In this document: positions 43,407-55,149 of the stretch, piece by piece
Position numbering within the stretch: position 1 is the stretch's first letter
How the letters are laid out: each line of letters starts with the position of its first letter
Origin: Metabacillus niabensis
GTDB lineage: Bacteria > Bacillota > Bacilli > Bacillales > Bacillaceae
NCBI RefSeq assembly: GCF_902829255.1
Contig: NZ_CADEPK010000353.1
Location: 1 to 64,000, forward strand
Direction: 5' to 3'
Length of the DNA stretch: 64,000 nucleotides
Notes under the pieces: generated by a model
Seen by the model: only the letters and a program-made list of their open reading frames with translations
Databases searched by the model: none
What the model was told of the DNA's origin: nothing
Program-made: the position numbers and the translations under genes

Positions 43407-44075
43407 ATGAGACTTTTATATATAGAGGATGATGTTGAGATCGGTCAGTGGGTTAAGGATGAGTTGACGGCTAAAGGGTATGAGGTTGTTTGGTTGACGT
43501 CTGGGCTCAACTTGCCGGAGAGCTTCGCTGATGTTGATTTGGTGATTTTAGATGTGATGCTGCCTGGTTTAGATGGGTTTTCCATCGGAAAGCGTATTAA
43601 GAGGGCAAAGCCTGAGATGCCAATTATTATGCTATCAGCACGCAGTTCAATTGAGGACAAGCTCGAGGGCCTTGAATTTGCTGAGGATTATGTAACGAAG
43701 CCCTTTCACCCCGATGAGCTAGCAAAACGTGTGGAGATTTTATTGCGGAGGTTTGACCGGACAACAACGTCTAAAAGGAAAATAAAGCATTTAGAAATCG
43801 ACTTTTCTAGCAATCTCATTATCAACTCATTAACAGGTGAAGAAATTCTCCTTACAGGCAAGCAATTTCAAATTTTCTCCTATTTTCTTCGTCACCTAAA
43901 TCAAATTCTCACAAAGGAGCAGCTCTATGAAGGGGTTTGGGAGGAGCCTTATATTGAGGGAGATAAAACGCTCATGGTCCATATTCGTTTTTTACGAGAA
44001 AAGCTAGAAATCAACCCATCACAACCTGAAATCATTGAAACGATCCGTGGAATCGGCTACAGGGTGAGAGCATGA
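43407..44075 (+). CDS. OmpR-family response regulator
   Basis: 222 residues from ATG at 43407; AAGGAGGG lies 13 bases upstream, a long spacing, and there is no better start. Receiver with LYIEDDVEIG, phospho-aspartate in LVILDVMLPGLDGFSIG, MLSARSSIEDK with the conserved Ser/Lys, then a winged helix (LTGKQFQIFSYFLRHLNQILTKEQLYEGVWEEPYIEGDKTLMVHIRFLREKL). Its stop overlaps the kinase start (ATGA). The regulator probably controls the ABC transporter downstream, whose promoter carries a tandem direct repeat. Confidence 0.92.
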   Translation: MRLLYIEDDVEIGQWVKDELTAKGYEVVWLTSGLNLPESFADVDLVILDVMLPGLDGFSIGKRIKRAKPEMPIIMLSARSSIEDKLEGLEFAEDYVTKPFHPDELAKRVEILLRRFDRTTTSKRKIKHLEIDFSSNLIINSLTGEEILLTGKQFQIFSYFLRHLNQILTKEQLYEGVWEEPYIEGDKTLMVHIRFLREKLEINPSQPEIIETIRGIGYRVRA

Positions 44076-45424
44076 AGCTAGTAAAATCATTACAATTTAA
44101 ATACTTACTGATCATTTTCTTCGCGGTATTGCTAATCCCATTTTCAATGCCAATCATTTCAACAATTGTCACACTTCCGCTAATGGCCATAGATGATCAG
44201 AAAAAATCAGATGCATATGATGGCTTTGAAAAGTTAGAAAAGGAATGGCACAGTGAAGCGAAAAAGTTACAAGGGGCTAGTGATGAGCAAATAAAGCAGC
44301 AACTAGCAACCCTTCACAATAAGTACGATGATTCCCATATCTTTTGGGTCGACAAAAACGGGAAAACCCGAGACAAATTCTCGTATAAAAAAAACCTACC
44401 TGAGCAGTGGACAGCATCCTTTACTGTTCAATATATGAAGGATCACTATAACTCCGATCCATTTACCGTTGTCGCCTTCCTTGGTAATAACCTATCAGAC
44501 GGCTTCATGGTCATTGAAGTGAAGCGCTCCTTAGTCGAGCCTCTTCTTCAAAAACATATGAGTCGCTTTGGATACGTTTATATTTACGTTCTAGTTCTCT
44601 TCCTACTAGTATTTATTTTAATATCATGGCTATTCTTTAGAAAAATTCATAAACGATTGCTTCGTTTATCTAATGCGATGCAAAATAAAAGTGAGTTTGG
44701 AATTCCCCAAACGATTGCCATTTCAAAAATGGATGAAATCGGCCAGCTTGAGGACAGCTTTAATCAGATGATAACAGAGCTAGAACAAAGCCGCCTCCGT
44801 GAGCAAAAGGAAGAAACATTACGAAAAGATTTAATCGCTAATTTATCACATGATCTGCGAACACCATTAACAGCGATTCGTGCTCAGCTTTCTCTCCTAA
44901 AAGAAGAAGTCATGACAGCAAAAGGCAGCAATGCGCTTGCATCGATAGATGAAAAAATTGATTATGTCAGCAAACTAATCGACAATTTGTTTTCGTACAC
45001 CCTTCTATCTGCGAAAAAATATCCATTTCATCCAGAAAAAACGGAGATGACTCGCTTCTTAAGAAAAATCGCCGCGAGCTGGTACCCAGTTTTTGAGGAA
45101 AAGGACTTTGAAATTGACATCGACATTCAAACTGAAGCAATTAGTTGGGAAATTGATCCACAATGGATGGAGCGAATTATCGAAAACCTGCTACAAAACG
45201 TAATCCGACATGCCTCAGATGGCAAATATATCGGTTTTTTCTTAAAAGACGGTCAATTGCTTATTAAAGATCATGGCACAGGCTTTCAGGAAAAAAGTGA
45301 ACATCAAGGTGCAGGAATCGGTCTTACGATTGTTAATGTCATGATAAACGAAATGGGCCTTCAATGGACGATTGATTCATCAAACGATGGAACGACCATT
45401 TCTATCTATTCTCCCCTTTCATAA
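44072..45424 (+). CDS. Sensor histidine kinase
   Basis: 450 residues. First membrane helix about 9-30, an extracellular domain of roughly 130 residues, a second helix (YVYIYVLVLFLLVFILISWLFF), HAMP (RKIHKRLLRLSNAMQNKSEFG...DEIGQLEDSFNQMI), the phospho-acceptor LIANLSHDLRTPLTAIRAQLSLL, N-box IENLLQNVIRHAS and G-box HQGAGIGLTIVNVMINEMG. The ATP-binding glycine boxes are complete. Together with the regulator it matches the SpaRK-type systems next to lantibiotic-immunity transporters. The signal is not identifiable from sequence. Confidence 0.9.
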   Translation: MKLVKSLQFKYLLIIFFAVLLIPFSMPIISTIVTLPLMAIDDQKKSDAYDGFEKLEKEWHSEAKKLQGASDEQIKQQLATLHNKYDDSHIFWVDKNGKTRDKFSYKKNLPEQWTASFTVQYMKDHYNSDPFTVVAFLGNNLSDGFMVIEVKRSLVEPLLQKHMSRFGYVYIYVLVLFLLVFILISWLFFRKIHKRLLRLSNAMQNKSEFGIPQTIAISKMDEIGQLEDSFNQMITELEQSRLREQKEETLRKDLIANLSHDLRTPLTAIRAQLSLLKEEVMTAKGSNALASIDEKIDYVSKLIDNLFSYTLLSAKKYPFHPEKTEMTRFLRKIAASWYPVFEEKDFEIDIDIQTEAISWEIDPQWMERIIENLLQNVIRHASDGKYIGFFLKDGQLLIKDHGTGFQEKSEHQGAGIGLTIVNVMINEMGLQWTIDSSNDGTTISIYSPLS

Positions 45425-45442
45425 TGATATGAAGGGGTTTTT
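45413..45442 (+). terminator. Terminator of the two-component operon
   Basis: CCCCTTTCAT and ATGAAGGGG form the stem across the stop codon, followed by TTTTTATTTT. Confidence 0.75.
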
Positions 45443-45692
45443 ATTTTCGAGACTTATGTGGGATTGGTGAGAAGTAAGCAGGTGTTCAACCACACAGAAA
45501 GCGAGCATTGCATGAGGAAACCACCGAAAAGCTTCACAAATACACCCTAGAAACTTCCTTCCTCATATACACAAATTACGATTTTGAGTGTTATTCAAAC
45601 GTTTGTTTAAGTGTATAAATTCATTAATTCTCCCTCCTTTCCTGAAGTAGGCTTTCATTTTATTTAACTTTTCCAAAACACCAACCCCCTTT
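45443..45692. other. Intergenic region before the ABC transporter operator
   Basis: About 250 bp with no ORF. A hairpin-like TTCAAACGTTTGTTTAA occurs near 45595-45612. I assign no function. Confidence 0.3.
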
Positions 45693-45714
45693 TTTAAACA
45701 AAATTTAAACAAAA
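45693..45714 (+). promoter_or_regulatory. Tandem 11-bp direct repeat, likely response-regulator operator of the ABC transporter
   Basis: TTTAAACAAAA occurs twice head to tail without a gap. The pattern is a pentamer repeated after six bases (TTTAA-N6-TTTAA), the layout of SpaR/NisR boxes, placed just upstream of the probable promoter (TATGCTATACAT about 30 bp further). OmpR-family regulators bind such 10-11 bp direct repeats. Confidence 0.6.
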
Positions 45715-45766
45715 CCGATCCTTCGATTTAACCAACGTCACCTATGCTATACATGAGGTGATAAAA

Positions 45767-46702
45767 ATGAACGAAACATTAATAAAAACAACGAATTTAA
45801 CAAAATCATTTAAAGGAAATCGTGTTGTAGATAGGTTGAATTTATCGATTGAAAAAGGAGAAATTTATGGATTTCTTGGTCCGAATGGGGCTGGAAAGAC
45901 GACGACGATACGGATGCTGCTTGGGTTAATGAAGCCATCGAGTGGTGGCATTGAGCTATTTGGTGAAAATGTGAAAGGCAATCATTTAAAAGCATTAAAA
46001 AAAATTGGTTCATTAGTTGAGTCTCCCTCTTATTACGGGCATTTAACAGCTCGAGAAAACTTAGAGGCTGTGCGGAAAATTCTTCAAGTACCAAAAAGCC
46101 GAATTGATGAGGTGTTAAAAATTGTTCGGTTAACCAAGGATGCGGACAGAGCTGTGAAAGGCTATTCTCTTGGGATGAAGCAGCGACTTGGCATTGCATC
46201 AGCGATTTTAGCAAATCCAGAGCTACTCATTTTAGATGAACCGACAAACGGACTGGACCCTTCCGGAATCCATGAAATACGCGATTTGATTAAAAGAATG
46301 CCCAAGGATTATGGCATTACTATCTTAATTTCTAGTCATTTGTTAAGTGAAATTGACCAGATGGCGACGAAGGTTGGCATTATTTCAAAGGGAAATATGA
46401 TTTTCCAGGATTCAATTGAAGTCCTTCGTAATAAAGCGAGAGCAAAAATCGCCATTAAGGTAAAGGATACGATGAAGGCAAAAACTCAGTTACTGACAAT
46501 GGGACATATTGTAGAAAACGAGAATGATTATTTGCTATGTGAGGATATTTCCGATGGACAAATCGCAAGCATTATTACACACCTAGTTCAGCATGGCCAT
46601 GAGATTTATCGTATTGAGGAAAAACGAAAATCGTTGGAAAGCATCTTCCTCGACTTAACGAATGAAGGAGGAACGCAGCATGTTGGCGGCACTGCAAGCT
46701 GA
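45767..46702 (+). CDS. ABC transporter ATP-binding protein, lantibiotic-immunity/bacitracin-resistance type
   Basis: 311 residues from ATG at 45767 (GAGGTGAT upstream; GTG at 45758 overlaps that site). Walker A GPNGAGKTT, Q-loop GSLVESPSYYGHLTARENL, signature YSLGMKQRLGIASAI, Walker B LLILDEPTNGLDPSGI, switch ISSHLLSE. Belongs to the LanF/BcrA subgroup. The C-terminal 90 residues form the regulatory extension of that subgroup. First gene of a transporter operon; two permeases overlap downstream. Confidence 0.92.
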   Translation: MNETLIKTTNLTKSFKGNRVVDRLNLSIEKGEIYGFLGPNGAGKTTTIRMLLGLMKPSSGGIELFGENVKGNHLKALKKIGSLVESPSYYGHLTARENLEAVRKILQVPKSRIDEVLKIVRLTKDADRAVKGYSLGMKQRLGIASAILANPELLILDEPTNGLDPSGIHEIRDLIKRMPKDYGITILISSHLLSEIDQMATKVGIISKGNMIFQDSIEVLRNKARAKIAIKVKDTMKAKTQLLTMGHIVENENDYLLCEDISDGQIASIITHLVQHGHEIYRIEEKRKSLESIFLDLTNEGGTQHVGGTAS

Positions 46703-47387
46703 TTTATTAAAGGTCAAACGGAAATGGTTTTGGTTTCTCGTTTTTCTAGGTCCGTTCGGTGTAATTTCACTACAAATGGTGAATTACGGGGTTCGCTATG
46801 ACTATTTAGTTGGTGGAAGCAAGGATGTTTGGCGGGATTTACTCGGTAATCTTAATAGTTTTACATCACTGGCACTATTGCTAGGAATTACGATTTTAGC
46901 ATCACAAATTGCTTCAATCGAGCATCAACAGAGCTCCTGGAAGCATCTTCTAAGCTTACCGATAAAACGTCGGGTCGTATATTCATCTAAGTTTTTTATT
47001 ATTTTGTTTATGCTCCTTCTATCATGTGTCCTTTTATTCGTTGGAACGATTTTTTTAGGACTTGGATTAGGGTTTGGCTCTTCCCCAATGCCGCTCGATG
47101 ATATTTTAATCAGCAGCTTTTATCCATTAATTGCTGGACTGCCAATTTTAGCGATTCAAACTTGGCTTTCGATTACATTTGACAATCAGGCGATTCCGTT
47201 AACGATTGGAATTTTCGGGACAATTGCTCCTTTCTTTTCAAGCAATATTCCTGATTGGTTCATTTGGAAGTGGCCAACATTAATGGGGGATCAGGAACCT
47301 ATTTGGTATGTAGCAGCTGGACTAGCTGTTGGCATCGTCATTCTTTTCCTTGGGATGATTGATTTTCAAAAAAGGGATGTGAAATAA
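46680..47387 (+). CDS. ABC transporter permease, LanE/MutE-like
   Basis: 235 residues from ATG at 46680 inside the end of the ATPase gene; GGAGG lies eight bases upstream. Six hydrophobic helices in the ABC-2/LanE pattern (KVKRKWFWFLVFLGPFGVISLQMVNYGVRYDYL...; HQQSSWKHLLSLPIKRRVVYSSKFFIILFMLLL). The motif WKHLLSLP is typical of lantibiotic-immunity permeases. It would form a heterodimer with the next permease. Confidence 0.88.
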   Translation: MLAALQADLLKVKRKWFWFLVFLGPFGVISLQMVNYGVRYDYLVGGSKDVWRDLLGNLNSFTSLALLLGITILASQIASIEHQQSSWKHLLSLPIKRRVVYSSKFFIILFMLLLSCVLLFVGTIFLGLGLGFGSSPMPLDDILISSFYPLIAGLPILAIQTWLSITFDNQAIPLTIGIFGTIAPFFSSNIPDWFIWKWPTLMGDQEPIWYVAAGLAVGIVILFLGMIDFQKRDVK

Positions 47388-48121
47388 TGTTTTGGAATTT
47401 AGTGCAATCTGAATTTTTAAAAATGCGGAAAACTTATATATGGCTTTTATTATTTGTCAGTCCAGCGTTCGCATTTGTTGCTGGATTTCTGACCGAGCAG
47501 GTTGAAGGGGCACCAAATGAATGGGTGATCCCACTGGTTATTATGACACCCATCCATACCATCTTGTTCCTCCCTCTCATTATTGGTGTGTTTACAAGCT
47601 TCTTATGCCGATATGAGCACAAGAATGGCGGATGGAAGCAATTATTAAGTCTTCCTGTGAAAAGAACGAATGTGTATCTATCGAAATTCTTTCTTACGAT
47701 TATGCTTATTGCGATTAACCAAGGTCTTGTTTTAGTAGCATGGCTTGCGATAGGGTTTATTAAAGGATTTGAAGACCCGATTCCTTATGATGTCATGGTA
47801 AGGAGCTTTGTTGGCGGATGGATTGCCACCCTTCCCCTTGCTGCAATTATGTTACTCATATCGATGGCATGGTCTAGCTTCGCCGCACCTTTAGCATTTA
47901 ACGTAGTGTTTACAGTACCGAATATTTTAGTAGCAAACTCAGAAACATATGCACCCTTCTATCCATGGGTCCAACCATTCCTCACAATGATTCCAAAAGG
48001 TGGCGAAGGACCATGGGGCGGATTTTTCATGTCATTCGAATCACTCGTCTATGCAATAATCGGCGGATTTATCCTCTTCTTCGCCAGCGGTCTTATCTAC
48101 ATCAACAAAAAGGCAGTGTGA
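47387..48121 (+). CDS. ABC transporter permease, LanG/MutG-like
   Basis: 244 residues, starting one base before the previous stop (TAATG). The same fold as its neighbour: SEFLKMRKTYIWLLLFVSPAFAFVAGFL..., GGWKQLLSLPVKRTNVYLSKFF, six helices. With the ATPase and the other permease it makes a LanFEG-type pump that expels peptide antibiotics from the membrane. No lantibiotic biosynthetic gene is in the window, so it would be self-standing resistance rather than producer immunity. Confidence 0.88.
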   Translation: MFWNLVQSEFLKMRKTYIWLLLFVSPAFAFVAGFLTEQVEGAPNEWVIPLVIMTPIHTILFLPLIIGVFTSFLCRYEHKNGGWKQLLSLPVKRTNVYLSKFFLTIMLIAINQGLVLVAWLAIGFIKGFEDPIPYDVMVRSFVGGWIATLPLAAIMLLISMAWSSFAAPLAFNVVFTVPNILVANSETYAPFYPWVQPFLTMIPKGGEGPWGGFFMSFESLVYAIIGGFILFFASGLIYINKKAV

Positions 48122-48144
48122 GTAGCAATTTGGGGACTCAATTT

Positions 48145-48409
48145 GGGGACTGTCCCCAAAACAGTGCAGTCCCCAAAGTTATAACACTAAAAACACCGTT
48201 TGGGGGACTGTCCCCAAATCAACAGATTTTCCCTTTTATGCTGCAACAAACCTTATTCTATCAAGATTGGGGACAGTCCCCCACTTTAATGACATTAGCT
48301 CAAATCCCGCGCAAAACACCCTTTTCGGGGACTGTCCCCAAAAAACTCCCAACCTCCTCTCCTTCCGCCAAAAAGGGACTAATGGCCTATTCGGCGGGGG
48401 ACTGTCCCC
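48145..48409. repeat. Five exact GGGGAC-N-GTCCCC palindromes at near-regular spacing
   Basis: Copies at 48145-48157, 48203-48215, 48269-48281, 48327-48339 and 48397-48409; start-to-start distances are 58, 66, 58 and 70 bp. A half-copy (TTTGGGGACTCA) lies at 48130-48141. The spacers are unrelated to each other. Placed between the permease stop and the DUF4178 gene. Confidence 0.92.
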
Positions 48410-48520
48410 AAAAATCCATTAAAATTATCTGGAAAATGCGAAACTTTCTCCTATTTAATTCGTATTAGGTGTTGTGAGATGATTATAGTATGTTTAAGGA
48501 TATGAAGTTGAGGTGGGTGC

Positions 48521-49030
48521 ATGAGTTTTTTTAGCAGGTTGTTTGGAAAGAAGGACGATGCTCCTAGGTCCGTCGAGGAACGGAATGTATTTAATCTTCA
48601 GCCAAATGATATTGTGACATATGATTTAGAGGATTATAAGGTTGTTGGAAAGATTAGTTATGATGACCATGGCTTCAAATGGTATGCATACCAGCTTGAA
48701 GGTGTCGCAAAAACGATTTGGTTAAGCGTTGAGATGGACGATGAGCTTTACCTTGGTATTTATGAAAAGGTAAAATTAAAGCTGGATGAACCGATCCCGA
48801 AAAAAATTCGTCATGAGGGAATTACTTATTACCTAGATGAATCAGGGAAAGCACGCGTAACTGGCATTGGAAGAAATCAGAATATTAATGGTATGATTTG
48901 TGAGTACTATGATTATTGTGATGAAGAAGAAGAAAAGTACCTCTCTGTTGAAAAATGGGGAAGCGAAATTGAAGTAAGTGCTGGTTATGATATTGAAGAA
49001 TATGAATTAAAATTTATTGCAAGCAAATAG
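48521..49030 (+). CDS. DUF4178-domain protein, first gene of PspA operon
   Basis: 169 residues, soluble and acidic, beta-rich (VFNLQPNDIVTYDLEDYKVVGKISYDDHGFKWYAYQLEG...; NGMICEYYDYCDEEEEKYLSVEKWG). This is the DUF4178 pattern. GAGGTGGGTGC precedes the ATG. The next gene, pspA, follows after 12 bp, so the two are co-transcribed. DUF4178 is repeatedly found beside PspA, DUF350 and aminopropyltransferase-type genes; function unknown. Confidence 0.8.
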   Translation: MSFFSRLFGKKDDAPRSVEERNVFNLQPNDIVTYDLEDYKVVGKISYDDHGFKWYAYQLEGVAKTIWLSVEMDDELYLGIYEKVKLKLDEPIPKKIRHEGITYYLDESGKARVTGIGRNQNINGMICEYYDYCDEEEEKYLSVEKWGSEIEVSAGYDIEEYELKFIASK

Positions 49031-49042
49031 GAGGAATAAACA

Positions 49043-49711
49043 ATGTTCAAATTTTTTAAACGTGTAAAAACAGTTGTTGACTCAGAGCTTAATGCATTAT
49101 TAGACAAAGCAGAAGATCCAGTAAAAATGCTAGACCAATTTATGCGCGATATGGAATCAGATATTCGCGAGGCAGAAGCAGCTGTTGCTAAGCAAATTGC
49201 CAATGAAAAAATGCTGCAAAAGAAATATGAAGAAGCACAAAAAATGGTTGAAAAGCGTGAAGAACAAGCGCTTAAAGCAGTTGAAGCTGGAAACGATGAT
49301 TTAGCTCGCCGCGCGCTAGAGGATAAAAAGCTTCACACACAAACAGCGGAAACATTAAAGGAATCATACGAACGTGCGAAGCTTGATTCTGAAGCTGTGC
49401 GTAAAAAGCTTGATGAAATGAAGGCTGAATATTATCAAATGAAGCTAAAAAAGGATTCCTTAAAAGCTCGTGCGGAATCTGCGAAGGCAAAAACAAAAAT
49501 GAACCGTACCCTTTCTGGTATTGGCTCTGATGAATCAAAACGAGGCTTCGAACGAATGGAAGAAAAGGTTCTCCAATTTGAAGCAGAAGCAGAAACAAGT
49601 GAAGACTTACGCTCTTCAAACAAAAGCCTTGATGATGAATTCGAATCATTAGAAAAAAATGATGTTGATGACGAGCTTGCTGCGTTAAAACGTAAATTAG
49701 GAAAAGAATAA
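49043..49711 (+). CDS. pspA: PspA/IM30-family protein
   Basis: 222 residues, almost entirely alpha-helical and charged. FKFFKRVKTVVDSELNALLDKAEDPVKMLDQFMRDMESDIREAEAAVAKQIANEKMLQKKYEEAQKMVEKREEQALKAVEAG is the PspA/LiaH signature: an N-terminal amphipathic membrane-binding helix then a long coiled coil. These ESCRT-III-like proteins assemble on damaged membranes. GGAGGAATAAAC precedes the ATG. Context with DUF4178 and the downstream genes points to an envelope-stress system distinct from lia. Confidence 0.92.
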   Translation: MFKFFKRVKTVVDSELNALLDKAEDPVKMLDQFMRDMESDIREAEAAVAKQIANEKMLQKKYEEAQKMVEKREEQALKAVEAGNDDLARRALEDKKLHTQTAETLKESYERAKLDSEAVRKKLDEMKAEYYQMKLKKDSLKARAESAKAKTKMNRTLSGIGSDESKRGFERMEEKVLQFEAEAETSEDLRSSNKSLDDEFESLEKNDVDDELAALKRKLGKE

Positions 49712-49757
49712 CGACCTATTACGTACACACTACAAGTGAATCAAACAAATAAGTATG

Positions 49758-49807
49758 AAGGGACTGTTTCAATGTGAGGGCTCATCCTTACTAAAAACAG
49801 CCCCTTT
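49758..49807 (+). terminator. Imperfect hairpin between pspA and the lipoprotein gene
   Basis: AAGGGACTGTTT pairs with AAACAGCCCCTTT (one mismatch) across a loop of about 25 bases. The T-tract is weak (TTTATC), so it may only reduce read-through within the operon. Confidence 0.5.
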
Positions 49808-49852
49808 ATCATGAAAACAAATTCATATTCCAAAATGAAAGAGGGTGAGTCA

Positions 49853-50464
49853 ATGAAAAAACCACTTCTTTTTGTTATGCTATCTTTTTCACTCCTTTTA
49901 GCCGCTTGTGGAAATATTGAGGGATCAACGAGCGGAACGATTTTCAAAGATGAAATAGCTGAATATATCGATACAAATTATATCCTTCAAGACGTTGTCA
50001 CAGGTCAGTCAGGATCAAATGACATCTCAGAAATCTACCTCGCAGAAAACAAATCAATCGATGAAGTGTCAAAAGAGCTACAAGATCATGAAAAACCACG
50101 TGAAATAAGCGAAAAGGTCAATAATAAGCAAGTCCTTATTTACCAGGATGTTTTTATTAGTCTAACTCTTTCAGAAGATAATCAGGATGACACAATGGTC
50201 GAAATATCCTCCTATGACTTTGTCCGGAACAATTATCATCCTAATTATTTCAATGGATTATTTGCATTATGGATTTTAGATGATATTCTTAGGGACGATA
50301 ATTGGGCAAACAAAAGAGAAAGAAAATGCTCTGCAACAAATGATGACTGCTATCAAGGATATGGAGCATCAGGCGGTACATATAAAAGCTCAACAAGCGG
50401 TTCCACTTCTGTAAGAGGAAGCACGTCAACCGTTCGTGGTGGCGGACCTGGTGCCGGAAAATAA
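49853..50464 (+). CDS. Lipoprotein, DUF4247 type
   Basis: 203 residues from ATG at 49853 (GAGGGTGAG upstream). Lipoprotein signal LSFSLLLAACGNIEG. The mature part ends in a serine/threonine/glycine-rich region (TSGSTSVRGSTSTVRGGGPGAGK), and has two cysteines (RKCSATNDDCYQGYG). It matches DUF4247, known beside DUF350/DUF4178 in Bacillus. It should be anchored outside the membrane, where it may sense or bind the product of the operon. Confidence 0.75.
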   Translation: MKKPLLFVMLSFSLLLAACGNIEGSTSGTIFKDEIAEYIDTNYILQDVVTGQSGSNDISEIYLAENKSIDEVSKELQDHEKPREISEKVNNKQVLIYQDVFISLTLSEDNQDDTMVEISSYDFVRNNYHPNYFNGLFALWILDDILRDDNWANKRERKCSATNDDCYQGYGASGGTYKSSTSGSTSVRGSTSTVRGGGPGAGK

Positions 50465-50572
50465 AATTTCATTATGCTCAAAAAAGAGTACAGAGGGAAA
50501 CCTCAGGAGAAACTCAACAAAATTTGCTTTTTTAGTTTTTACAAAAAATGAATATGAGAAAGGATGAATCAG

Positions 50573-50968
50573 ATGGAACCATTTATTTTAACGGCTGTCT
50601 ACTTCTTAATTGCCATTATTATTGTACTTATTGGATTAGTTATTTTCGAATTCCTTACAAAGAAATATAAAGACTGGGATGAGGTACTAAACGGAAACCA
50701 CGCTGTCTCTCTATCAATTGGTGGGAAAATCGTCGGTATCTGTATTATTCTTTCATTCTCGATTTACCATAGTGCGAATGTGCTAGATACATTGATTTGG
50801 GGCGCATACGGAATTTTATTGCAAATGGTTGCTTATCTTCTATTTGAGCTTTTCACAAGAAAATTCTCTGTTGAAGAACAATTGCAAAAGGGAAATATTT
50901 CAGTCGGGATTATCAGCATGTGTGTATCGATCGGCCTTGGATTTGTCATCGGTGCATCGATTACGTAA
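50573..50968 (+). CDS. DUF350 (YjfL-like) membrane protein
   Basis: 131 residues, four hydrophobic helices with acidic and lysine residues in loops (FLTKKYKDWDEVLNGNHAVSLSIGGKIVGICIILSFSI...; EEQLQKGNISVGIISMCVSIGLGFVIGASIT). The repeated GN-x-A/S-V-x-I/L pattern is typical of DUF350. ATG at 50573 is correctly spaced from AAAGG. It is encoded 22 bp before the aminopropyltransferase gene. Confidence 0.8.
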   Translation: MEPFILTAVYFLIAIIIVLIGLVIFEFLTKKYKDWDEVLNGNHAVSLSIGGKIVGICIILSFSIYHSANVLDTLIWGAYGILLQMVAYLLFELFTRKFSVEEQLQKGNISVGIISMCVSIGLGFVIGASIT

Positions 50969-50989
50969 CATAAGGAGACGACTTTTATA

Positions 50990-52540
50990 GTGAGTGAGAA
51001 AAAAAATAAACAAAGCAAAGCGATTTATTGGGCTTCGGGGATCGTTTCCGTTTGCGGGATTATCTTCGAGGTTCTATTCGGCGCAGCTGGTTCTTATTTA
51101 CTTGGTGATGGTGTAAAGCAATACACCCTCACCATTTCTCTTTTTCTAACCGGAATGGGAATCGGTGCGTCAATAAGTGAAAGAGTAACAAAAAATTTAA
51201 TATTATCATTTGTTTGGATTGAATATCTCATTGGAATTCTAGCCGGATTTTCAACCTTCCTCCTCTTCGGGGTATCCGCGTTTTTAAGTGAAGGAATGGA
51301 TTCGTTATTCCTTTATACAATTACATTAGTTGTTGGAGGATTAACAGGTGTTGAATTACCGATTTTAATTCGTAAAGCAAATGAAATTGGTGTCACCGTT
51401 CAAAAAAGTACTGCACGAGTGCTTTTTTCAGATTACGCAGGTGGATTAATTGGCGGTATCCTCTTCGTCTACTTGTTTCGACCAGAGTTTGGCCTAGTGA
51501 AAACAGCGTTTATCGTAGCATTAATAAATGTCATCGTGGCACTCTGGATCCTTCTCTATTTTAAAAAGGAAATAAAAACGTTCAAGCGCCATTTCACAGC
51601 TGGAATTGCGATCTTCCTCCTGCTCATCGTCGGCATATTTTTCGGTGAGGAAACAGCGTTTACGTTTGAACAAAAGCTTTACCGAGATCCGATTATTTAT
51701 ACAGAGCAAACCGCCTACCAGCAAATCATTTTAACAAAGGAACAAGGTGATTTGCGTCTTTTCCTTGATGGCCAGCTGCAATTTAGCTCAACAGATGAGC
51801 ATCGCTATCATGAGACACTTGTTCACCCTACAATGGCAACAGCGGAGAAAAGAGAAAACATTCTTATTCTTGGCGGCGGTGACGGCTTAGCCTTACGCGA
51901 GCTGCAAAAATATGATGAGGTTAAATCGATGACACTCGTAGACCTTGATCCAAAGGTCGTTGAGCTCGGTAAAACGAATCGTGATATCGTCACATTAAAT
52001 AAACATTCGTATGAGGATGAACGTGTCAATGTTGTTAACGAGGACGCGTTTCAATATTTAAAAAGGGACAAGCAATTTTACGACGTCATTCTCGTTGATT
52101 TGCCTGACCCGAATAATGAATCATTGAACAAGCTGTATACACTTGAGTTTTATCAGCTGCTGCGAAATCATTTAACACCAGGCGGCTCAATGATGATCCA
52201 GGCAACGAGCCCAACGTTTGCAACAGAGGTTTATTGGTCGATTAACCAAACCGTTCAGGCTGCTGACCTACAAACAGCCAACCTTCACGTAGATGTCCCA
52301 AGCTTTGGAGATTGGGGATTTGTTCTTGCGAAACGAGAGCCCGTCAACCTAAAGGATGCAAAAATAACCGTCGAAACGGAATTTTTAACGAATGATGTCC
52401 TCGATGGTCTTACAACGTTCGGCAAGGATATTGACAAAGATATCGTCGATGAAAAGGGGCGAAAAGTACCAATCGAAACAAACACACTAACCCGTCCAAC
52501 GATTATCGAAAAATACGAAAAAGCATGGAAAAGCTACTAA
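50990..52540 (+). CDS. Membrane-integrated spermidine/spermine-synthase-like protein
   Basis: 516 residues. N-terminal seven to eight helices (about 12-215), then a spermidine-synthase fold: LRLFLDGQLQFSSTDEHRYHETLVHP, nucleotide motif ILILGGGDGLALRELQKYDEVKSMTLVDLDPKVVELG, and the catalytic-type aspartate in DVILVDLPDPNN. Residues binding decarboxylated S-adenosylmethionine or SAM appear kept. Membrane fusions of this kind occur in bacteria; the true substrate is not known. It may modify a lipid or lipid-linked amine rather than free putrescine. GTG start at 50990 after AAGGAG. Last gene of the pspA operon. Confidence 0.88.
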   Translation: MSEKKNKQSKAIYWASGIVSVCGIIFEVLFGAAGSYLLGDGVKQYTLTISLFLTGMGIGASISERVTKNLILSFVWIEYLIGILAGFSTFLLFGVSAFLSEGMDSLFLYTITLVVGGLTGVELPILIRKANEIGVTVQKSTARVLFSDYAGGLIGGILFVYLFRPEFGLVKTAFIVALINVIVALWILLYFKKEIKTFKRHFTAGIAIFLLLIVGIFFGEETAFTFEQKLYRDPIIYTEQTAYQQIILTKEQGDLRLFLDGQLQFSSTDEHRYHETLVHPTMATAEKRENILILGGGDGLALRELQKYDEVKSMTLVDLDPKVVELGKTNRDIVTLNKHSYEDERVNVVNEDAFQYLKRDKQFYDVILVDLPDPNNESLNKLYTLEFYQLLRNHLTPGGSMMIQATSPTFATEVYWSINQTVQAADLQTANLHVDVPSFGDWGFVLAKREPVNLKDAKITVETEFLTNDVLDGLTTFGKDIDKDIVDEKGRKVPIETNTLTRPTIIEKYEKAWKSY

Positions 52541-52560
52541 AGCAAAGCGAGCAACCTCTT

Positions 52561-52573
52561 GGGGACAGTCCCC
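52561..52573. repeat. Last GGGGACAGTCCCC palindrome
   Basis: Exact copy, 20 bp after the aminopropyltransferase stop. No further copy is seen from here to 64 kb. Confidence 0.92.
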
Positions 52574-52705
52574 AATGAAGGATGCTCGTTTTTATTATAT
52601 TTGTTTGTCGACAAATTACGACAATTACACATATAATCTAGGAAAAAAGAATGATGTGATGAGGCATTTTATGATAGAATGTAAGAAAAAATAGAATTAT
52701 TCTAC

Positions 52706-52790
52706 TAAAAAGGCAAACTCATCGAAAGGTGAAGACGCAAAGCTACAGACCTAAAGGAAACTATGGTGGCTGAGTTACCAAAGGAATAGC
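52706..52790 (+). promoter_or_regulatory. Cyclic di-GMP-I (GEMM-I) riboswitch aptamer
   Basis: The conserved GEMM-I core is readable in order: GGCAAACTCAT, CGAAAG tetraloop, GACGCAAAGCT, CAGACCTAAAGG, ACTATGGTGGCTGAGTTACC. The GAAA tetraloop and the CCTAA...TATGG receptor, both diagnostic, are present. A terminator hairpin follows directly, and the next gene is a GGDEF-EAL gene, as typical for this riboswitch. A promoter lies upstream but is not mapped. Confidence 0.93.
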
Positions 52791-52791
52791 G

Positions 52792-52826
52792 AAAAAGGTT
52801 ATTACCAATGGGAAATAGCCTTTTTT
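52792..52826 (+). terminator. Terminator acting as riboswitch expression platform
   Basis: AAAAAGGTTATTACC and GGGAAATAGCCTTTTTT form the stem, ending in six T, between the aptamer and the GGDEF-EAL start codon. Ligand-dependent termination is inferred from this arrangement. Confidence 0.85.
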
Positions 52827-52869
52827 ATTTACACAATTTACTTTTAGTGACTAACTGTGAGGTACTACG

Positions 52870-55149
52870 ATGTTAAAATCAAAGCGTTCAGCCTACTTAT
52901 TCTTTTTCATTCTTATTGCAGTATACTACGCTAGTCTCATTTTATTTCACGACAATCTCTGGATGAGAGCCTTTATCGCATCCTTTCTTCCCATTGTCGC
53001 AGGCCTTGTAAGCTTTTCTTGGACGTTTAAAGCTTATCAAACGATGGCAGATAAAAATCGCTATTTTTGGCTCCTATTTAGTATTGGGATTTTATTTTTT
53101 ACGCTATTTCATTTCACCTTATTATTTTTTCTTTTAACTAACCGGACACACAATATAGAAATCGCTATCATTTTATTATCCGCTTATTTGCTATTTCTTA
53201 CCGGGTTAGCATATAAAATTAGACAAATCAAAACAAATCCAAATCGTCCTTTTTTCTTTAATCTCATCATCTTTATGACAGTTGTCATGACGGTTAGTAT
53301 TCATTACATCGTTAATCCTATTTTGCCTTATAGAAATTTCTCGCTTATCTCAACGAGTATTTCGTTATGCTTTCCAGTCATCATTTGGAGCATATCTTTT
53401 ACAATCACTTACTTATTCTATCTGTTTCCCGCTATCCAAGATAAGAGGTCTTCCCTTTTTATTATAGGCGGCTCTATTATTCTAGTTATCGCGGATGTCA
53501 TCTATATTTTCCAAAATCTAAATAATGATTTTTTGCCAGGGAATATGACTGATCCATTGTTAACGATTGCCATCTTAATCATTGGACTTGGAGGCTTGTA
53601 CACGAAGGAAAAGACAAATGAGCGAGAATGGTTTACAGATACGTTAGCAAAAAATAATGGCTATATCTTCCCATACTTAAGCGTCATGATTTTACTCGTC
53701 CTTTATTTAGAAAGCACAAACTGGTATTATAATTCCCTTACGATCGGTCTTTGCCTAACATTGTTTTTAATTGTTGGCAGGCAAATTCTTTTAGTAAGAA
53801 AAAATTATTTATTAATTGCTGAATATCATCATTTAGCATACCACGATCCTCTTACAGGCTTATACAATCGCGCAAAATTAACAGAGGATTTTACCCAGCT
53901 TCAAGAAAAAATGGATTCAAGCCCGAACCCAATTGCATTGCTTTTATTCGATTTAGATCGATTTAAAAATATCAATGATTCGTTTGGACATTATATTGGC
54001 GATAGCCTATTAGAAGAAGTGGCGAAAAGACTAAAATCAAGCGCAAAGGAAAATGCACGCATTTACCGAATGGGTGGCGATGAATTCATCTTTTTATTAG
54101 TCAATGCGACAAAAGACGATAGTATCACAACGGCTAAACAGATTCTAGCTGAATTTTCTAGACCATTTAAAATTGCTGACTATGACATAACGATAACACC
54201 GAGTATTGGCATCAGCATGTATCCAGAAAACGCAGCAAACCCTGTCTCTTTACTAAAAAATGCTGATGCCGCCATGTATTTAGCTAAGGAAAAAGGAAAA
54301 AATAACTACCAATTTTATTGCTCTCAGCTAAATGAAACGATGAATCGAAAAATGCTGCTTGAAACTGAGCTGCGTAACGCCATTGAAAAAAATCAGCTAC
54401 AGCTTTATTATCAGCCTAAAATTGATTTGAAAACGAGAAAATTAGTCGGTATGGAGGCATTATTACGTTGGCAACACCCTACATTAGGGGTCATTGCACC
54501 AAGTGAGTTTATTCCGATTGCTGAAGAATCTAGACAAATTATTAGCATTGGCGAATGGGTACTTTTGACAGCCTGCAAGCAAAATAAACTGTGGCAGAAT
54601 AGCGGGCTCCCCCATCTTTCTGTTTCGGTCAACGTCTCTGTTCGCCAATTTCAAGACAGTGATTTTTTACTAACGGTGAAAAGGGTCATTGCTGAATCTG
54701 GACTTGATCCACAGTACTTAGAACTGGAAATAACGGAAAGCATCATGCAAAACATGAATGAATCGCTACTGATTTTAACCGGGCTAAGAAAGCTTGGCGT
54801 AAAGCTATCGATTGATGACTTTGGAACAGGCTATTCGTCCTTGCATGTTTTAAAGGAGCTTCCAATTGATACGCTAAAAATCGATAAATCATTTATTGAC
54901 AATATTTCAGATCCAAAAAATCAGTCGATGGTAAAAACAATTATTGATTTAGGGTTAAATTTCAACTTAAATATCGTTGCTGAAGGAATTGAGCATGAGC
55001 ATCAAGCACAGGTTCTCTCAAGCTTTAACTGCAACTATGGACAAGGCTATCTCTTTTCAAAACCAATTCCGACTGAACAATTCAATCATCTACTCATACA
55101 AATAAAAATAGGCGGAAGCACACTAGGTTGTAAGAGTACGAATTTTTAA
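52870..55149 (+). CDS. Membrane GGDEF-EAL c-di-GMP cyclase/phosphodiesterase
   Basis: 759 residues. About eight N-terminal membrane helices (1 to about 310). A GGDEF domain (about 320-475: HDPLTGLYNRAKL, LLLFDLDRFKNINDSFGH, YRMGGDEFIFLL) follows with an intact GGDEF. An EAL domain (about 490-745) carries GMEALLRWQHP, LSVSVNVSVRQF, SIDDFGTGYSSL, DTLKIDKSFI and VAEGIEH. Both halves look catalytically complete, so either or both activities are possible. A c-di-GMP riboswitch lies upstream, giving feedback. It likely tunes the switch between motility and biofilm. Confidence 0.95.
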   Translation: MLKSKRSAYLFFFILIAVYYASLILFHDNLWMRAFIASFLPIVAGLVSFSWTFKAYQTMADKNRYFWLLFSIGILFFTLFHFTLLFFLLTNRTHNIEIAIILLSAYLLFLTGLAYKIRQIKTNPNRPFFFNLIIFMTVVMTVSIHYIVNPILPYRNFSLISTSISLCFPVIIWSISFTITYLFYLFPAIQDKRSSLFIIGGSIILVIADVIYIFQNLNNDFLPGNMTDPLLTIAILIIGLGGLYTKEKTNEREWFTDTLAKNNGYIFPYLSVMILLVLYLESTNWYYNSLTIGLCLTLFLIVGRQILLVRKNYLLIAEYHHLAYHDPLTGLYNRAKLTEDFTQLQEKMDSSPNPIALLLFDLDRFKNINDSFGHYIGDSLLEEVAKRLKSSAKENARIYRMGGDEFIFLLVNATKDDSITTAKQILAEFSRPFKIADYDITITPSIGISMYPENAANPVSLLKNADAAMYLAKEKGKNNYQFYCSQLNETMNRKMLLETELRNAIEKNQLQLYYQPKIDLKTRKLVGMEALLRWQHPTLGVIAPSEFIPIAEESRQIISIGEWVLLTACKQNKLWQNSGLPHLSVSVNVSVRQFQDSDFLLTVKRVIAESGLDPQYLELEITESIMQNMNESLLILTGLRKLGVKLSIDDFGTGYSSLHVLKELPIDTLKIDKSFIDNISDPKNQSMVKTIIDLGLNFNLNIVAEGIEHEHQAQVLSSFNCNYGQGYLFSKPIPTEQFNHLLIQIKIGGSTLGCKSTNF

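Follow-up and report, generated by a model that had tools for sequence, protein, structure and literature searches.

A conserved five-gene operon of Metabacillus niabensis (NCBI RefSeq assembly GCF_902829255.1, contig NZ_CADEPK010000353.1, positions 1 to 64,000; this 64,000-nucleotide stretch is referred to as the window) encodes DUF4178, PspA, DUF4247 and DUF350 proteins together with a seven-helix membrane protein bearing a spermidine-synthase domain, herein named SpeE7. The DUF4247 lipoprotein is the best candidate for the substrate of this enzyme, since it ends in a Gly-Lys tail that is invariant where SpeE7 is present and absent where it is not. From these sequence patterns we put at about even the chance that SpeE7 aminopropylates the terminal Lys of the tail, with DUF350 giving membrane help and in concert with a PspA-DUF4178 module. 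Membrane-fused spermidine synthases are found in many bacteria and we know of no acceptor for them; a neighbouring anchored protein whose Gly-Lys tail goes with the enzyme offers a specific candidate. An initial annotation of the window had read the operon as an uncharacterised envelope system adding a polyamine- or S-adenosylmethionine (SAM)-derived group to a lipid or envelope molecule, with the lipoprotein as outer sensor. That interpretation is partly supported: the observation is sound and the type of system is known, and the invariant tail on the anchored DUF4247 protein is its new, testable part.

A Gly-Lys tail on DUF4247 proteins accompanies SpeE7

The DUF4247 gene (49853–50464, forward strand; PF14042, 51.6 bits, over cut-off) encodes a lipoprotein with the lipobox LAAC, and its last sense codons (50435–50461) specify the tail RGGGPGAGK, the proposed substrate site, which stands out by its conservation across DUF4247 proteins. 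These proteins are otherwise weakly conserved (mean column identity 41% over 31 sequences), and RGGGxxxGK ends 137 of 139 of them (122 of 124 distinct sequences), drawn from two overlapping sets of organisms. In 199 genomes from the window's order (the order sample), the tail is present in all 61 with SpeE7, and it is retained in a genome without a DUF4178 match (G033). All six Arg and all four Gly codons occur in the tail. Since these codons vary freely while the amino acids are fixed, selection acts on the protein, and a DNA or RNA element was rejected as the source of the conservation. Chance was rejected as well, as the ending GG(1–5)GK is found on none of the 1090 other open reading frames (ORFs) at these loci; eight end in GK. 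In a structure model of the DUF4247 protein the globular domain is confident and the last ~25 residues are disordered (predicted local distance difference test score, pLDDT, 45–53). A comparison of this model with the PDB gave no match at E ≤0.001, the best reaching 0.021, and sequence searches of DUF350 and DUF4178 against solved structures returned nothing useful.

The two proteins lacking the tail are both copies from G151, the sole genome of the 199 with DUF4247 but without SpeE7. In the family of this genome (26 genomes), DUF4247 occurs in 11; the tail is present in all four that have SpeE7 (one, G176, is also counted in the order sample) and in none of nine DUF4247 proteins from the seven that lack it. 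Most of the SpeE7-free DUF4247 proteins (L097, L098, L220–L226, L231 and L232) are about 290 residues long, and their ends are basic, for example FGRIMRRSR, with one exception. A DUF4247 tblastn search returned a single plasmid record, from Paenibacillus, with the order PspA-DUF350-DUF4178-DUF4247 and no SpeE7 in the plasmid stretch to which the comparison was confined, the chromosome lying outside it. The DUF4247 protein there ends in ...RRSRR despite the DUF350 gene, which suggests that the tail follows SpeE7 and not DUF350.

The association extends to other lineages. Among 398 Bacillota genomes searched at E 1e-90, 13 carry SpeE7, including that of the window and G040; in all 11 others, which are more distant, a SpeE7 neighbour with a membrane helix or lipobox ends in GK (for example RGGGFGFGK, RGGGSAVGK and RGGGIFGGK), three of them without Arg-Gly-Gly. 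At one locus (L212, 10458–11570) a 370-residue protein in which a membrane helix joins a DUF4178 domain to a Gly-Lys tail lies beside DUF350, SpeE7 and SpeD, the SAM decarboxylase. Beyond the Bacillota, 12 plasmid loci from six genera encode near SpeE7 a protein with a hydrophobic N-terminus that ends in Lys: NRLGGGPESGK in Ensifer, RNRGPSSGK in Alteromonas, GPSHK or GPTHK in Novosphingobium, YGSHK in Burkholderia, NSNRVK in Tritonibacter and RFRHGK in Gemmatirosa. These proteins are not recognisably related, and their genes directly precede DUF350 or SpeE7 in five of the six genera; as they were picked by their Lys ending, they illustrate more than they prove. Their recurrence near SpeE7 in other phyla bears on the idea that the lipoprotein uses its tail as a signal for sorting or assembly, independently of the enzyme's chemistry, with the target of SpeE7 elsewhere. 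The Arg- and Gly-rich composition of the tail and the basic end kept by most SpeE7-free forms would fit such a signal, but the recurrence of Lys endings on proteins without recognisable kinship would not, and we hold this explanation to be rather improbable.

The same distribution was weighed against a reading close to that of the initial annotation, in which SpeE7 aminopropylates a membrane lipid such as phosphatidylethanolamine, conferring positive charge in the manner of MprF, with the lipoprotein as sensor or partner. An enzyme fused to the membrane, its link to PspA and its intact donor site all accord with a lipid target, and passages of Ravi et al. (PMC11237479) mention aminopropylation of other substrates. 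A lipid target leaves unexplained, however, why the end of the lipoprotein is invariant and why it is lost where SpeE7 is absent, and we consider it unlikely. For the lipoprotein itself, the role of outer sensor is less well supported than that of substrate, which the enzyme-linked tail favours; we have set the former aside without regarding it as disproved.

SpeE7 retains the donor site of aminopropyltransferases

SpeE7 (50990–52540, forward strand, GTG start) has 516 residues and belongs to the NCBIfam family NF002956, "polyamine aminopropyltransferase" (586 bits against a curated cut-off of 472); it also matches Pfam Spermine_synth over cut-off (138.4 bits). The solved structures closest to it are aminopropyltransferases, and its structure model matches the fold of the Thermus aminopropyltransferase 1uir with an E value of 1.8e-17. 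The aminopropyltransferase domain, delimited by alignment and structure model, spans residues 235–450 (51692–52339), with GGGDG at 295–299 and DxxDP at 370–374. In an alignment of 60 order-level sequences, which includes that of the window and excludes a split copy, GxG(D/E)G and DxxDP, the motifs of the SpeE fold family, are present in every sequence, and the donor-site motif residues GGGDG 295–299, D320, D352, D370 and D373 are invariant. On the acceptor side the SpeE7 sequences all depart from the canonical SpeE encoded in the same genome, with R272 in place of Val, T406-S407 in place of Asp-Asn and F439 in place of Tyr. The assignment of these residues to donor or acceptor contacts is the one usual for the family.

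The distribution of SpeD points the same way. The window's genome encodes elsewhere one canonical SpeE and two SpeD proteins (C461:2494–2811 and C269:1416–1796; one of the short type, with 128 residues, and one with 268), and none of the 61 SpeE7 genomes in the order sample lacks SpeD. SpeE7 is the only SpeE-family protein in seven genomes (three belong to a single genus), every one of which has retained SpeD, compared with one of nine genomes that have no SpeE-family match (G158, just 80% complete; Fisher p 0.0014, relatedness not corrected). Two genomes with weak SpeE-like matches only (G087 and G169) lack SpeD as well. SpeD lies within ~3 kb of SpeE7 in G175, G075, G160, G186 and G589, and on Novosphingobium and Alteromonas plasmids; on the former (L206, 7442–9432) SpeE7 is followed by a flavin adenine dinucleotide-dependent oxidoreductase and then by SpeD. 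Given the invariant donor motifs and the retention of SpeD, SpeE7 very likely uses decarboxylated SAM, in line with the earlier suggestion that a SAM-derived group is employed; an envelope target is possible.

Two further explanations turn on these features. SpeE7 could synthesise free spermidine, thermospermine or a similar polyamine at the membrane, to be exported through the seven helices and DUF350, with the tail as a docking element. Its best fold and sequence matches, the Thermus aminopropyltransferase and plant thermospermine synthase, are what such an enzyme would give. The genome of the window, though, already has a separate canonical SpeE, and the acceptor-side residues of SpeE7 depart from the canonical ones throughout. 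Such fusions also reportedly fail to complement a speE mutant (Li et al. 2019). Free polyamine synthesis thus seems to us an unlikely function, on a par with lipid modification.

Alternatively, the SpeE7 domain might be a SAM methyltransferase that methylates the lipoprotein. Passages on the fungal N-terminal histidine methyltransferase NHMT (AN4663; PMC10349129) describe an enzyme that, like SpeE7, joins a seven-helix part to a spermidine-synthase-like domain, and that acts on secreted proteins. NHMT differs in transferring methyl groups, in its N-terminal target and in having Ile at the Asp/Glu of GxG(D/E)G (PMC10349129, same passages), whereas that position is occupied by Asp298 in 60 of 60 SpeE7 sequences. 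Methylation also sits poorly with the retention of SpeD, and we give it little credence, the least of the explanations considered.

The catalytic domain is predicted to face outward

The structure model of SpeE7 (pLDDT 86; predicted template modelling score 0.65) comprises seven membrane helices, with one long helix counted as two, followed by the enzyme fold. Hydropathy also supports seven, so that of the "seven or eight" helices first proposed the lower figure holds and the higher does not; the enzyme is membrane-bound, as had been proposed. We counted charged residues in 125 distinct sequences with helix limits set by hand. The N-terminus and loops 2, 4 and 6 carry on average 2.4, 2.1, 3.1 and 3.5 Lys plus Arg, and loops 1, 3 and 5 and the segment following helix 7 carry 0.95, 0.01, 1.9 and 1.9. 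By the positive-inside rule, these charges would place the N-terminus inside and the catalytic domain outside.

A candidate route to a polyamine-capped lipoprotein

We propose that SpeD makes decarboxylated SAM, whose aminopropyl group SpeE7 would attach to the C-terminal Lys of the anchored DUF4247 lipoprotein, at the side-chain amine. Putrescine is the normal acceptor of the SpeE fold, and the Lys side chain is likewise a four-carbon amine, so the aminopropyl product would resemble spermidine: a lipoprotein with a flexible Gly-rich tail bearing a spermidine-like polycation at its tip. The catalytic domain would face outward, on the same side as the tail. DUF350 may assist the membrane part, through substrate passage or complex assembly, with PspA and DUF4178 as a cytosolic module that would couple the modification to membrane integrity. 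If this is correct, it would add a new bacterial protein modification, N6-aminopropyl-lysine, and name the missing acceptor; it would also be a polyamine-type modification of surface proteins and tie polyamine chemistry to PspA membrane protection. Polyamines on protein have a precedent in accounts of diatom silaffin, which describe long-chain polyamines; these sit on lysine. No report of such an aminopropyl-lysine lipoprotein modification appeared by title among the literature matches listed, subscription papers and preprints being outside the scope of that search. Within the same literature, one paper mentions DUF4178 and three mention DUF4247.

Several points weigh against lysine aminopropylation. 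The chemistry is deduced from sequences and models, and the tail might serve DUF350 or SpeE7 as a docking signal instead of being the modified site. Five of the seven SpeE7-free DUF4247 genomes belong to one genus, so the loss of the tail may amount to one or two events, and one of the seven, G594, has a completeness of 75% and a contamination of 10%. Among the non-Bacillota examples, the Burkholderia protein is encoded in a divergently oriented cluster at a distance of ~3 kb, and the Tritonibacter and Gemmatirosa endings are not of the GG..GK form. If the catalytic domain faces outward, decarboxylated SAM would have to be available beyond the cytosol, and we know of no carrier for it. Scarcity of Cys says nothing about sidedness: the SpeE7 domain is Cys-free in 123 of 125 sequences and canonical SpeE in 16 of 17, and the two are equally Cys-poor.

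The operon is conserved among relatives of Bacillus

The five-gene set is a real, conserved operon of Bacillus relatives and looks like an envelope system, in agreement with the initial view. SpeE7 scored over cut-off in 60 of the 199 order genomes, and one more (G077) has a split copy, giving 61. DUF4178 was found in 61, of which 60 belong to the SpeE7 set; it is thus present in 60 of 61 genomes with SpeE7 versus 1 of 138 without (Fisher p 7.5e-49, relatedness not corrected), an association not due to chance. The Pfam DUF4247 model matched in 48 of 199 genomes, and DUF4247-like proteins adjoin SpeE7 in all 61.

The order sample yielded 63 loci from 61 genomes (two each from G006 and G151; the window is excluded), and 49 show the exact order DUF4178-PspA-DUF4247-DUF350-SpeE7. 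Four of the 14 others differ merely by small extra ORFs of the gene caller or by a split SpeE7; at L059 two genes missed by the gene caller were placed by profile searches, and another locus has one extra DUF350. Five loci consist of DUF4247-DUF350-SpeE7 without a same-direction DUF4178-PspA ahead, two of them with a divergent PspA alongside. The second G006 locus is without SpeE7 locally, and both G151 loci are without DUF350 and SpeE7. Searches for named relatives of SpeE7 found at least 573; in the best 80, used for gene order, 77 loci have the full five-gene order and the remaining three are truncated where their contigs end. The closest named SpeE7 among the matches listed is that of Metabacillus halosaccharovorans (85% identity), and many of those matches come from Halobacillus, Virgibacillus, Oceanobacillus, Thalassobacillus, Salimicrobium and Jeotgalibacillus, all salt-loving genera. 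In control genomes, Corynebacterium glutamicum gave matches for DUF4247, DUF4178 and SpeE7, and a profile search of B. subtilis gave none for DUF4178 or DUF4247.

Some loci carry additional neighbours. Proteins that resemble potassium channels and carry ion-channel and TrkA/RCK domains lie next to or near SpeE7 at L209, L214, L217, L219 and L095, and by similarity at L093 and L094. At L210 (7524–8063) and L213 (7447–8010) a DUF2617 protein lies between PspA and DUF4247; passages of Ravi et al. 2024 (PMC11237479) name DUF2617 and DUF4247 together in a variant without PspA.

Comparison with known systems

The function of this operon may fairly be called uncharacterised, as the initial annotation had it, but its type of gene cluster is already in print. 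Ravi et al. 2024 (PMC11237479), in passages on PspA, describe a second group of the CesT/Tir-PspA operon with a seven-transmembrane (7TM)-spermine synthase; in their proposal, what PspA systems monitor is polyamines or the aminopropylation of other substrates. Like the present operon, that group unites PspA, 7TM-SpeE, DUF350 and DUF4178 with a lipoprotein. The window operon differs in having no sixth CesT/Tir gene, a judgement that rests on gene order and not on a CesT model. In the 77 named loci that are not truncated, compared for these five genes, the set and its order are the same. The group is described with a lipoprotein of the Ctha_1186 type; the one here falls in the Pfam DUF4247 family, and DUF4247, which the same authors name for the variant without PspA, here occurs with PspA. 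The PspA passages of that paper, section 19 among them, mention no such tail and no protein acceptor.

SpeE7 is also of the same type as a second described enzyme, with a shared linkage to SpeD and DUF350. Fusions of a major facilitator superfamily part to spermidine synthase were reportedly linked to AdoMet decarboxylase (SpeD) and DUF350 by Li et al. in 2019, who are said to have proposed an acceptor other than putrescine without naming one.

A third comparison is with E. coli, whose yjf region the initial annotation had taken as a parallel containing a spermidine-synthase-like gene. PspA and DUF350 do occur there; the stretch examined has no SpeE-like gene and contains the ATP-grasp enzyme YjfC instead. 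YjfC and YgiC, reportedly treated by Pederick et al. in 2023, bear the RefSeq name peptide--spermidine ligase and adjoin YjfM and YgiB (DUF1190), whose Gly-rich C-termini end in Gly-Gly and are presumably the tails on which they act. The yjfIJKLMC cluster shares PspA and DUF350 with the window operon, whereas ygiBC does not. The E. coli systems pair an ATP-grasp ligase with a tail ending in Gly and the window operon an aminopropyltransferase with a tail ending in Lys; none of the five operon genes encodes a GSP_synth ATP-grasp enzyme of the YjfC/YgiC kind. By analogy, the two chemistries may serve one purpose. With somewhat less confidence than in the reaction itself, and at odds slightly below even, we suggest that several phyla cap the C-terminal tails of exported anchored proteins with polyamine, using two unrelated chemistries that have DUF350 in common, namely ATP-grasp ligation of spermidine to Gly and aminopropylation of Lys by an outward-facing SpeE7. 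This would suggest a reason for the presence of DUF350 beside both SpeE7 and YjfC. The window's own genome has a second DUF350 cluster (L102, 5905–7893, contig C146) encoding DUF350, a GSP_synth ATP-grasp enzyme and a 105-residue lipoprotein-like protein ending in SGGFGG.

Gene limits, transcription signals and neighbouring genes

All five ORFs and their forward strand are as first annotated, and Pfam and NCBIfam confirmed their families. The DUF4178 gene (48521–49030, 169 residues; PF13785, 115 bits against a cut-off of 25) is followed by pspA (49043–49711, 222 residues). The PspA protein falls in the PspA/IM30 family (PF04012, PspA_IM30, 168.7 bits, over cut-off); the NCBIfam LiaH and PspA equivalog models also match, both under cut-off. 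The DUF4247 ORF is open from 49811, and the ATG at 49853 is the more likely start, as a signal peptide with the lipobox can be read directly from there; this start leaves a gap of ~141 base pairs after pspA. The DUF350 (YjfL family) gene (50564–50968, 134 residues; PF03994, 126.5 bits, over cut-off) encodes a membrane protein.

A strong forward-strand hairpin in the pspA-DUF4247 gap (49755–49810; −24 kcal/mol, z −4.45, equalled in 0 of 200 shuffles) is a possible attenuator, and a second hairpin 3′ of SpeE7 (52541–52590, forward strand; −25.8 kcal/mol, z −5.03) is a likely terminator. The five genes probably form one transcript, yet the first hairpin makes attenuation downstream of pspA possible. 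A scan of 48100–52870 for sigma-70-type promoters was of no use, with 13 sites against 12.0 expected in shuffles.

Directly upstream of the operon (44072–48121) lie a histidine kinase and then an ATP-binding cassette transporter with two permeases; the transporter is MutE/MutG-like, resembling lantibiotic immunity systems, with matches under cut-offs. Downstream, a c-di-GMP-I riboswitch (52702–52782; RF01051, 74.6 bits) directly precedes a GGDEF-EAL gene (52870–55149). A palindrome that looks like a dispersed repeat occurs at 19 places between 31292 and 52573 of the window, 13 times as GGGGACTGTCCCC and 6 times as GGGGACAGTCCCC, with several of the places beside the operon.

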